In this document: positions 17,019-56,749 of the stretch, in pieces
Position numbering within the stretch: position 1 is the stretch's first letter
Layout: each line of letters opens with the position of its first letter
NCBI GenBank assembly: GCA_003576915.1
Contig: QEVF01000003.1
Location: 177,737-241,736 of the forward strand
Direction of reading: 5' to 3'
Length of the DNA: 64,000 nt
Source of the DNA: Planctomycetota bacterium
GTDB lineage: Bacteria; Planctomycetota; UBA8742; UBA2392
Notes under the pieces: generated by a model
Told to the model about the DNA's origin: nothing
Databases searched by the model: none
What the model saw: the letters and a program-made list of their open reading frames with translations, nothing else
Translations under genes and position numbers: made by a program

Positions 17019-17999
17019 ATGCGCTTTATCCTGCTGGCCCTGTTGTTGTTTGCTCCCCTGGTCCGCGCCCAGACTCAGGGTTCGCCTGCCCCTGACTTCA
17101 CCATGGGCGGCCTCAGCGCCTACAGCGACGCCACCACCCGCGCCGACTGCCTGGGCAGTGTCATCGTCATCAAGATCTGGGGCATCACGTGAGCGCCCTG
17201 CCTGCGGCAGTTGCCGCACCTGCAGGAAGTGTGGGAGAAGAACAAGGCGCGCGGCTTGCGCGTGTTTGCGGTGGAAGGCGACGGTCTGACGGCGCTTGAG
17301 AACTTCGCCTTTGCGGGCGAAAACAAGTACACATTTCCGATTGTGACCGCGTCGGAGAGTTCGCTGGCGAGCTGGGACATCAAGACGATGCCCAACACGT
17401 ATGTGGTGAACGCCGAGGGCCTGCTGGTGTTCAAGGGCTCCGAGGGATGGGACGGCATCGTCGAGAAGGAACTGGCCCGGCGCCCCTACACCGGCCTGAA
17501 CAAGGACAAGGTCGAGAAGGACTGCGAGAAGGCGGCGGCGGCCTTTGGCAAGGGTGATTACGTCAAGGCGGCGGAGTTGGCCAAAGCAGTAGTGGAAGGC
17601 AAGCCCTCGGAGGCCGCCGTGGCCGATGCACAGATGATCATCGAGGCCTGTGCCGCCACGGAGCAGAAGCTGCGGGCGGCGGCGGACCTGGCCAAGGGCG
17701 AGAAGCGTTACGCCGATTGCCTGGAGGCCCTGGACAGGCTGGCCTCGGGCTTCAAGGGCACGGAGAGCGGCACGAAGGCTGAAGCGGAGGCCAAGGAGTT
17801 GCGCAAGGACAAGGACGTAAAGAAGGAGTTGGGCGCCTGGCAGGCCCTGCGCCAGGCCCTGGAGTCGAACAAGAAATTGAAGAAGGCCGAGAAGGTGAAG
17901 GCGCTGCGCGGCGTGCAGAAATCGCAGGAAGGCACGGAAGCCGGCGCCAAGGCCAAGGAACTGGCCACGGCCATCGAGGGCTCAAAGTACTTCCGCTGA
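17019..17999 (+). CDS. Selenocysteine-containing exported thioredoxin/TlpA-like protein (in-frame TGA)
   Basis: Read through an in-frame TGA at 17190-17192 this is one 326-residue protein. It has a signal peptide (MRFILLALLLFAPLVRAQ), a TlpA/AhpC-type thioredoxin fold opening with SPAPDF, the active site WGIT-Sec58-APC61, the cis-Pro block TMPNTYVVNAEG, then a charged helical tail of about 160 residues. In TlpA proteins the motif is WxxWCxPC, so Sec replaces the first redox cysteine. The start ATG has GGAG upstream. A stem-loop right after the TGA fits a bacterial SECIS. A paralog with the same TGA and the same total length lies at 49828. Read as stops, the TGA would leave a 57-residue fragment ending just before the active site. 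It probably acts as a periplasmic thiol-disulfide oxidoreductase; the tail may bind partners. Confidence 0.88.
17197..17226 (+). promoter_or_regulatory. Candidate bacterial SECIS element (selenoprotein 1)
   Basis: The element begins 4 nt after the TGA. The lower stem CCTGC (17197-17201) pairs with GCAGG (17222-17226). After a 1x3 internal loop comes a 6-bp upper stem, TGCGGC (17203-17208) with GCCGCA (17213-17218), capped by loop AGUU. The loop G is at 17210, 18 nt after the last base of the TGA, within the spacing known for SelB-binding elements, which need a G in the first two loop positions. It lies inside the coding region. Confidence 0.75.
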
Positions 18000-49342: not shown

Positions 49343-49645
49343 ATGCCTGTTGTGACCGTGCAGAACGAAGCCCTGCAGTTTGAAGTGGAGGCCAACGCCA
49401 ATCTGCTGGAGGCGCTCAAGAAGAACGGCTGCTCGCCCTACGGTCTGATGAGCAAGTTCGCGCCCTTCCTTTTCAAGGGCGCCGACGACGTGCTGGTCAT
49501 TGAGGGTCGCCGAAACCTCTCGGAGCCGACCGAGAAGGAAAAGACCATCCTGGGCCCGCGCCTGGACGAGAACTTCCGCCTCGCCGGCGAAACCCTGGTC
49601 AACGGCGACATCGAGATTCACACGGCAGCCCGCATCAAGGTCTGA
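49343..49645 (+). CDS. 2Fe-2S-ferredoxin-fold protein without cluster cysteines
   Basis: A 100-residue protein with the order of a plant-type ferredoxin of the kind in which SPPTExExxxLG and LAC follow the cluster loop. It has VTVQNEALQFEVEANANLLEALKKNG, then LSEPTEKEKTILGPRLDENFRLAGETLVNGDIEIH. The four Cys ligands are missing: the cluster loop reads GCSPYGLMSKFAPFLFKG with one Cys (Cys30), and the usual RLAC is RLAG. The fold may now serve for binding rather than electron transfer. A hairpin terminator follows. Confidence 0.6.
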   Translation: MPVVTVQNEALQFEVEANANLLEALKKNGCSPYGLMSKFAPFLFKGADDVLVIEGRRNLSEPTEKEKTILGPRLDENFRLAGETLVNGDIEIHTAARIKV

Positions 49646-49827: not shown

Positions 49828-50808
49828 ATGAAGACGCTGGCATGGGCATTTCTCCTGGCCGCGCTGAGTCTGGCTGCGCCCCTGAGTGCGCAGCTCAAGG
49901 GCAAGCCGGCGCCGGATTTCTCGGCGGGTGAAAGTTTGACGGCAAGGCAGGACCACCGCACCCTCGCGGACTGCAAGGCTGAGGTCGTCCTGATCAAACT
50001 GTGGGGCATCAAGTGACCGCCCTGTGTGAAGGCGTTGCCTTCACTCCAGGGTCTCTGGAACGAATACGGAGGTAAGGGTCTCAACATGTTTCTGCTTGAG
50101 TCCCAGGGCACCGAGGAAGGCGCCCTGAAGAAGTTCCTTTCGGACCGCGGCATCACGGCGCCGGTTTACAAGGGCGGCCTGAGCGGCTACGACGGTGATA
50201 ACGGCCTGCCTTTCACCTACGTGATCGGCGTGGACGGCACGGTGGTGTTCGAGGGTCGCGGAGACTACCACTCGGTGGTCAAGAGCGAGATGGCCAAGAT
50301 CAAGTACCCCGGCCTGGGCAAGCTGGAAGTGGCCAAGGGCCTTGAGAAGGCCGCCATGAGCTTTGTCGAGAAGCAGTTCGCCAAGGCCATCGAAGACTGC
50401 AACAAGGTGATCGAGAAGGGCAAGGACGAAGCGGCGGTCGAAGACGCGAAGTTCATCATTGATCGCTGCAACGCCGAGGGCGCGAAGATTCGCGCCAACG
50501 TGGACAAGGCCAAGGAAGAAAAGCGCTACCTCGACGCGTTTGCCGGCCTTGAAACCCTGGCCGTCGGCTTCAAGGGTATGGAGCTGGGCGATGCGGCTGC
50601 GGCTGAACTCAAGGAGCTGAAGAAGGACAAGGAAGTCAAGCGCGAGGTGGATGCCGCGACCGCCCTGCAGCGACTGATCGAAAGCCAGAAGACGGTCAAG
50701 AGCAAGACGGACCGGGCCAAACAGCTGCGCGACTTTGCCAAGAAGAACGACGGCACCCGCGCGGCTGAAGACGCCAAGACGCTGGCCGATCAGATTGAGG
50801 CGGGTTAG
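49828..50808 (+). CDS. Selenocysteine-containing exported thioredoxin/TlpA-like protein, paralog 2 (in-frame TGA)
   Basis: Read through the TGA at 50014-50016 this is a 326-residue protein, the same length as the paralog at 17019. It has a signal peptide (to about LSAQL), KPAPDF at the start of the thioredoxin fold, the active site WGIK-Sec63-PPC66, and FTYVIGVDG at the cis-Pro strand. The final about 150 residues are charged helices (KGLEKAAMSFVEKQFAKAIED; LETLAVGFKGMELG) that match the paralog segment LDRLASGFKGTESG. The ATG at 49828 has GGAG upstream. A SECIS-like stem-loop follows the TGA. Downstream is a Cys-type thioredoxin lipoprotein with WCPYC. Likely a periplasmic redox enzyme; substrate unknown. 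Confidence 0.88.
50020..50051 (+). promoter_or_regulatory. Candidate bacterial SECIS element (selenoprotein 2)
   Basis: The lower stem CCCTG (50020-50024) pairs with CAGGG (50047-50051). After a 1x2 internal loop with a U comes a perfect 8-bp stem, GTGAAGGC (50026-50033) with GCCTTCAC (50037-50044), capped by loop GUU. The loop G (50034) is 18 nt after the TGA, identical to the first element. The U in the internal loop on the 5' side recalls the bulged U of known SelB targets. Confidence 0.78.
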
Positions 50809-50968: not shown

Positions 50969-51706
50969 ATGTCCACGATGGTCCAACGCAGTCTCAACCT
51001 CGTCCTCGCCCTGGCCTTGGGCTCGCTCGTCGTGGCCGGCTGCACGCTGGCTTCCGAGAATCCCGAGTCTGGCTACGGCACAGACGCCTCGGGCAACGAA
51101 ACCTACAAAGGCCACAACGTTTCCAAGTACCATCCGCGCCGCGCTTCGAGCGAGGAACCGGAGACGCCCAAATCCGGCGGCGGTGAGGTGTGCCCCCTGC
51201 CGCCCACGGCCGAAAAGGACGTGCTCCAGAAGTTCAAGGTGGGCGACCTGTTTCCTGACTTCGTCCTCAAGGACGTCGTCAGCGGCAAGGAAGTCAAACG
51301 CAGCGAGCACGGCAAGGGCCACTATCAGATGATATTGATGTGGGCCTCCTGGTGTCCCTACTGCCGCACCGCGCAGGAGAAGTCGGCCAAACCCATCTTC
51401 GAGGAATTGAACAAGGACGGAAAGACCCGCCTGGATGTCATTGGCGTGGGGGTCAACTTCCTGGACGACACTCCGGCGGCCCAGAAGACCTTCATCCAGA
51501 GCAACAGGATTCCGTGGACCTGCGTGTTTGACCAGGACGCCCAGGTGAAGGACGGCATCGGCAGCGACTTCATTCCGGCGGTGATTCTGCTTGATGAAAG
51601 CGGCAAGATTGTCACTTACGGCTACTACATGGACGACTACGCCCGTAAGCTCAACAACTACCTGCGCGACGCCTGCGAGTTCAAGGACAGGAACCCTGGA
51701 AAGTAG
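50969..51706 (+). CDS. Thioredoxin/TlpA-like lipoprotein (Cys form)
   Basis: A 245-residue lipoprotein with lipobox VVAGC (Cys24 when starting at ATG 50969). After a linker of about 60 residues a TlpA-type fold opens with VGDLFPDFVLKDVVSG. The active site WASWCPYC has both cysteines, followed by VGVNFLDD and the cis-Pro block DFIPAVILLDESGK. It is a membrane-anchored periplasmic thiol-disulfide oxidoreductase. It lies downstream of the Sec paralog but has its own leader of 112 bp after the terminator. An ATG three codons later is an alternative start. Confidence 0.85.
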   Translation: MSTMVQRSLNLVLALALGSLVVAGCTLASENPESGYGTDASGNETYKGHNVSKYHPRRASSEEPETPKSGGGEVCPLPPTAEKDVLQKFKVGDLFPDFVLKDVVSGKEVKRSEHGKGHYQMILMWASWCPYCRTAQEKSAKPIFEELNKDGKTRLDVIGVGVNFLDDTPAAQKTFIQSNRIPWTCVFDQDAQVKDGIGSDFIPAVILLDESGKIVTYGYYMDDYARKLNNYLRDACEFKDRNPGK

Positions 51707-55645: not shown

Positions 55646-55672
55646 GCGGGGAGCAGCGAGGCTGCTCCCCGC
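55646..55672. terminator. Bidirectional terminator between the lipoprotein gene and mrp
   Basis: A perfect 12-bp stem (55646-55657 with 55661-55672) with a GAG loop lies between converging genes. It is followed by TTTGTGTT on the plus strand and, on the minus strand, by a GTGTTTTC tail. Confidence 0.8.
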
Positions 55673-55684
55673 TTTGTGTTGAGC

Positions 55685-56749
55685 TCAGGCCGTGACAGGC
55701 TGGTTCCTGTTGGCGTGAATGGCGACCTGCTGGGCCACGCGCATTGCGAACTCCTTGAGCGCGAGGCTCGCGGGGTCCGCCGGGTGGCTGACGAGAATGG
55801 GCTTGCCGCTGTCTCCCGAGGCGACCACGGCCTCCGTCAGGGGGATCTCGCCGAAGTAAGCAATGCCGTACTTCTCGGCGCAGCGCCGGCCCGCACCCTT
55901 GCCGAAGATGTCCGTGCGCTGCCCGCAATGGGAGCAGATGAAACCCGACATGTTCTCGACGACGCCCAGCACGTTGACCTTGACGGTGTGGAACATGCCG
56001 ATGGCACGTTTTACATCGGCCAGCGCCACGTCCTGCGGCGTCGTCACGATCACGGCCTGCGCTGTGGGCACCATGCGCGTGAGGGAGAGCTGCACGTCGC
56101 CTGTGCCGGGGGGCATGTCCACGATCAGGTAGTCCAGGTTGCCCCAGTCCACCTGTCCCAGAAACTGGCGAATGGCGCTGTCAAGCATGGGGCCGCGCCA
56201 GACCACCGCCTGCCCTTCGGCCAGCAGAAAGCCCATGCTCATGAGCTTCAGGCCGAACTTCACGTGGGGGATGATGCGCTGCTCTTCCGTCGCCACGGGC
56301 TGCTCATGGATGCCGAACATCGTGGGAACGCTGGGTCCGTAAATGTCGGCGTCCAGCAACCCTACTTCGGCGCCGTGCTGGGCCAGGGCATTGGCCAGGT
56401 TGGCTGCCACGGTGCTTTTGCCCACGCCGCCCTTGCCCGCCGCCACCATGATGACGTTCTTGATGCCGGGGATCAGGTCCTGGGCCGTGAGGTTCGTGGC
56501 CGCGGTGTTGGAACTCCAGTTCAGTTTGACCTCCCCCGCCCCCAGCCGGCGCGTCAGGGTCTGCCTGATGTCTGCACCGATCTGGTCCTTGAGGGGGCAG
56601 GCGGGCGTGGTCAGCTCGACCGTCAGCTCAATGCCGGTCCCCTCTGACTTGACGTCCTTGATCATCCCGAGGTCCACCAGGTCTTTGTGCAGGTCCGGGT
56701 CCTGTACGCCCTTGAGCGCCGCCAGTATCTCTTGCTTTGAAAATGCCAT
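55685..56749 (-). CDS. mrp: Mrp/ApbC-type iron-sulfur cluster carrier ATPase
   Basis: A 354-residue P-loop protein. The N-terminal about 90 residues form a MIP18/DUF59 domain (EILAALKGVQDPDL; ELTTPACPLKDQI). The ATPase has AAGKGGVGKSTVAANLA (deviant Walker A), DADIYGPSVP, DYLIVDMPPGTGD and VVENMSGFICSHCGQ with a CxxC for cluster binding. It carries or assembles Fe-S clusters for apoproteins. The ATG at 56749 follows GAGAGGA; an upstream ATG adds eight residues. The upstream gap holds a hairpin-array element. Confidence 0.93.
   Translation of the reverse strand: MAFSKQEILAALKGVQDPDLHKDLVDLGMIKDVKSEGTGIELTVELTTPACPLKDQIGADIRQTLTRRLGAGEVKLNWSSNTAATNLTAQDLIPGIKNVIMVAAGKGGVGKSTVAANLANALAQHGAEVGLLDADIYGPSVPTMFGIHEQPVATEEQRIIPHVKFGLKLMSMGFLLAEGQAVVWRGPMLDSAIRQFLGQVDWGNLDYLIVDMPPGTGDVQLSLTRMVPTAQAVIVTTPQDVALADVKRAIGMFHTVKVNVLGVVENMSGFICSHCGQRTDIFGKGAGRRCAEKYGIAYFGEIPLTEAVVASGDSGKPILVSHPADPASLALKEFAMRVAQQVAIHANRNQPVTA

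Follow-up and report, generated by a model that had tools for sequence, protein, structure and literature searches.

The hairpin that follows the in-frame TGA at 50014 (element 2) is almost certainly a bacterial SECIS within the coding region of a selenoprotein, with UGA 50014 very likely read as Sec and not as a stop. Computation here established the open frame through the TGA, the retention of that TGA in relatives, RNA-level selection on the hairpin and the presence of the Sec machinery. Coordinates refer to the window, the whole 64-kb stretch of DNA that was analysed.

Table 1. Features of the two selenoprotein genes and their SECIS hairpins in the window
Feature	Position	Strand	Basis or description
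Selenoprotein gene	49828-50808	+	326 codons including a single in-frame TGA; encodes a signal peptide, a ResA/AhpC-TSA-like domain and a helical C-terminal domain
Sec codon TGA	50014-50016	+	sequence; residue U63 of motif LWGIK-U-PPC; aligned to Cys of paralogues' CxPC
Element 2, lower stem, 5 bp	50020-50024/50047-50051	+	fold, pair counts; not conserved beyond close relatives
Element 2, unpaired U, internal loop	50025	+	fold
Element 2, upper SECIS hairpin GUGAAGGC-GUU-GCCUUCAC	50026-50044	+	fold, pair counts, zero synonymous change
Element 2, upper stem, 8 bp	50026-50033/50037-50044	+	fold
Element 2, inner 6 bp and loop, invariant in relatives	50028-50033/50037-50042	+	pair counts
Element 2, apical loop GUU, G 18 nt after TGA	50034-50036	+	fold; invariant in 18 distinct homologous elements
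Paralogous selenoprotein gene with element 1	17019-17984	+	43% identity to the 49828-50808 product, one in-frame TGA
Element 1: TGA 17190-17192 and hairpin UGCGGC-AGUU-GCCGCA, loop G at +18	17190-17218	+	fold; R1 model 57.5 bits, by construction, as element 1 is in that model

Translation of the gene at 49828-50808 with TGA as Sec yielded a single 326-residue protein with the active site U63-P-P-C66, where its relatives carry C-x-P-C. The Pfam domain AhpC-TSA was detected above its cut-off (E 3.9e-8, 33.7 bits vs 26), and a hydrophobic signal was judged by eye to be present at the N terminus. In the predicted structure (mean pLDDT 89) the first half matched ResA-like proteins, U63 immediately preceded a helix beginning at residue 64, and the last 155 residues or so formed a helical domain that is also found in NF041382 selenoproteins. 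The product is most likely an exported ResA-like thiol:disulfide oxidoreductase. The neighbouring gene (50969-51706) encodes a Cys-type redoxin (WASWCPYC) that is probably a lipoprotein.

Conventional gene prediction closes an ORF at 50016 and opens a new one at the GTG at 50026, which would fit TGA 50014 being a true stop, or a lesion in a pseudogene or from a sequencing error, with ORF 50026-50808 a separate or dead gene. We consider this very improbable. Every one of the 16 family genomes contained homologues, as did 18 of the 20 genomes of the class (E ≤ 1e-30), the orthologues in every genus of the family carry the same TGA at the same codon, and there is purifying selection on both sides of it. 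On its own, ORF 50026-50808 would also encode a thioredoxin fold missing its nucleophile and its first strand, and the host genome carries Sec machinery, as described below.

With the UGA taken as a Sec codon, we turn to the hairpin itself. The preliminary description had proposed, at 50014-50051, a 5-bp lower stem, a U in an internal loop, an 8-bp upper stem and a GUU loop; the fold reproduced all of these, and the loop G lies exactly 18 nt after the TGA in both elements, as had been stated. The minimum free energy of element 2 was –20.5 kcal/mol compared to a mean of –9.4 for shuffled sequences (z = –4.6), and 0 of 200 shuffles folded as well. The window is GC-rich, and a SECIS-like stem of at least 4 bp stands behind 806 of its 1862 TGAs (at least 8 bp behind 31). 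With hairpins this common behind TGAs, the shape by itself is weak evidence. The combination of a stem of 6 bp or more with a GTT loop placed exactly at +18 was far rarer: only two TGAs in the window had it, those of elements 1 and 2, where 0.16 would be expected. Ranking the TGAs by folding energy proved a poor discriminator (element 2 came sixth among 258 candidates), a pattern scan of the genome was too loose (710 hits), and no Rfam family matched at the gathering threshold. On the minus strand, a strong 12-bp hairpin (55646-55687) lies behind the stop codon, also TGA, of a gene for an Mrp/ApbC-like ATPase; this hairpin may be a terminator rather than a SECIS.

A structure of this kind had been predicted to recur beside the TGA codons of homologues, and it did. 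A hairpin with a G-U loop (stems of at least 4 bp) accompanied 68 of 79 distinct TGA sites compared to 0 of 18 Cys paralogue sites, although these sites are related by descent and the counts are not independent. The loop G was at +18 in 48 of the TGA sites, at +19 in 12 and at +31 in 8. In the +31 group the closing pair alternates between C-G and G-C (CACCTC-GTT-GAGGTG, ACCTG-GTT-CAGGT). No clear hairpin was seen at ten Sec sites in the searched range of +12 to +31, and an eleventh had one at +12 only. At loci L019, L101, L121, L122, L123, L124, L126 and L127 the TGA is conserved, but the +12 to +31 range shows no clear hairpin with a G-U loop; their SECIS may sit farther downstream or include a bulge.

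Could the hairpin be a mere by-product of the amino-acid sequence, with the UGA read as Sec and the real SECIS elsewhere? The palindromic codons of K-A-L-P-S could pair by chance, and some paralogues have their hairpin at +31 instead. The codon usage makes this most unlikely. GTG-AAG-GCG-TTG-CCT was identical in 19 element-2 homologues, that is, five consecutive codons without synonymous change, including the rare TTG (7% of Leu codons in a sample from the window). Four- or sixfold degenerate residues occupied 34 conserved columns, and only the four of these that lie in the hairpin were codon-invariant. Synonymous recodings of the same peptide rarely folded as well as element 2 (p = 0.006, 1000 recodings), and the Cys paralogues have no hairpin at the same place. 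The same folding test was modest for many homologues (mean z of –1.4 at Sec sites and –0.1 at Cys sites).

Base pairs were compared within each class. Among the 26 sequences of the element-1 class, three pairs had changed on both sides, with a covariation score of 0.432 compared to at most 0.115 in slid controls. The 18 sequences of the element-2 class showed no variation at all in the loop or the inner six pairs, and covariation is therefore silent there. Four of the five pairs of the element-2 lower stem were broken in 4 to 14 of the 18 homologues, and the upper stem's two outer pairs were broken in many of them.

The two elements had been described as having the same geometry, which holds for the position of the G-U-U; it does not extend to the loop sizes, to the lower stem, which is lineage-specific, or to a shared covariance model. 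The loop is AGUU on a 6-bp stem in element 1 and GUU on an 8-bp stem in element 2, so that exact sharing is limited to the position of the G-U-U. A covariance model of the element-1 class (R1) recovered its own class, but as a finder of element 2 it failed, scoring it at 11.2 bits with a window-wide E of 0.25.

The host genome (3.9 Mb, 59 contigs) encodes a tRNA-Sec with the anticodon UCA, selA directly upstream of it (307 bits vs a cut-off of 268), selB and selD, which is the set of SelA, SelB, SelD and tRNA-Sec looked for in a bacterial SECIS host. Across the order, selB was above its cut-off in 16 of 17 genomes and Sec-type homologues were present in all 17. TGA still serves as a stop elsewhere in the host, for example at 49643-49645 and in selA. 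The host's close relatives in named collections are metagenome bins assigned to Planctomycetota. Stem-loops shortly downstream of a stop codon can boost readthrough, but decoding of this UGA by another tRNA such as Trp is barely credible given the complete Sec pathway, the alignment of the UGA with the catalytic Cys of CxPC, and a loop and spacing that fit the bacterial SECIS model. Covariation in the element-1 class, the five frozen codons of element 2 and the full Sec machinery together support the initial reading of a conserved RNA structure.

Selenocysteine insertion thus remains the preferred reading, and it would most likely proceed as follows. SelB-GTP with Sec-tRNA(Sec) would bind the stem and GUU loop as the ribosome reaches the UGA, UGA 50014 would be decoded as selenocysteine instead of stop, and an exported ResA-like oxidoreductase would result, predicted to be redox-active with U-P-P-C in place of C-x-P-C.

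The host genome has nine members of this redoxin family including the 49828-50808 product, and seven have a TGA active site. Three further genes with in-frame TGAs were found outside the family. The selD gene (L133, G000:C56:18581-19701) is itself a selenoprotein gene, with its TGA at 133-135 (GAGU-GCK) and a possible hairpin, GACCU-CGUGC-AGGUC, whose loop G is about 28 nt past the TGA. L173 (G000:C14:67166-67206, minus strand) is a deiodinase-like selenoprotein candidate (PF00837, E 3.5e-22; GSYT-U-PPC), and L174 (G000:C52:99546-99598) is a ResA-like one (DVWATW-U-GPC). Together with the seven redoxins, this brings the selenoprotein candidates of the host to at least ten. No further selenoprotein genes were seen within the window. 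Genomes with at least six selenoproteins have been termed selenoprotein-rich, and the three phyla named as having such genomes do not include Planctomycetota (PMC5029168).

In the redoxin family tree, elements 1 and 2 fell in sister clades, each mostly Sec, with Cys and Asp copies nested or adjacent. The Sec, Cys and Asp labels required 7 changes in total compared to 28 in shuffles, on a midpoint-rooted tree that gives no direction for the Sec/Cys changes. Tandem copies whose active sites carry Sec, Cys or the chalcogen-free Asp lie side by side, for example at G001:C3:277519-280689 and G007:C4:120204-123378. We tentatively suggest, at somewhat less than even odds, that this uncultured Planctomycetota lineage has a dedicated extracytoplasmic selenium redox system made of roughly seven exported Sec-redoxins in each genome, accompanied by Cys and Asp copies in tandem, and with SECIS elements at +18/+19 in some members or about +31 in others. 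If so, both the relocation of a SECIS and Sec/Cys exchange could be traced inside one gene family. In any case, Sec, Cys and Asp versions alongside SECIS elements of known geometry make a good test case for Sec/Cys exchange and for the constraint that a SECIS places on protein sequence. Because ORF callers normally break these genes in two at the TGA, annotation is likely to miss the selenoproteome of the group. In the openly licensed literature searched, no relevant paper on selenoproteins in Planctomycetota was found by title or abstract.

Element 2 resembles the bacterial SECIS consensus of Zhang and Gladyshev, whose criteria we took as restated in PMC13188914, in its 3-nt loop starting with G-U and its 8-bp upper stem (6 bp conserved). 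The upper stem (8 bp, 6 of them invariant in homologues) falls within the 4-16 bp of the model, the UGA-to-apical-loop spacing of 17 nt within 16-37 nt, and the folding energy of –20.5 kcal/mol below the limit of –7.5; the GUU loop conforms, the element follows an in-frame UGA, and the gene has Cys homologues. The SECIS of E. coli fdhF has a bulged U, and no such bulge is obvious in element 2.

The protein itself corresponds to the UxxC redoxin or Prx-like thiol:disulfide oxidoreductase selenoproteins (PF08534 and PF00578 rows, Table 1 of PMC13188914): its AhpC-TSA/Redoxin domain exceeds the Pfam cut-off and Sec is the first residue of the CxxC motif, as UxxC. It differs from them in the extra C-terminal helical domain (~155 residues) and in having 7 paralogues in one genome. 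That C-terminal domain resembles positions 190-348 of the NF041382 profile (VPGUxxT type 1; E 1.6e-22), whereas the catalytic half carries UPPC and not VPGUxxT. Full membership of NF041382 was rejected at 80.3 bits vs the curated cut-off of 350, with the match confined to the C-terminal half, and no full members were found in the host genome. Compared to ResA, TlpA and CcmG, the predicted N-terminal fold is similar (best PDB matches ResA-like, TMt 0.7-0.77, 23-28% identity), but Sec replaces Cys and the C-terminal helical domain is absent from those structures. The mechanism, a bacterial SECIS serving a UxxC redoxin selenoprotein, is already known; the gene set is new, and the expansion of Sec-redoxins in Planctomycetota is notable.
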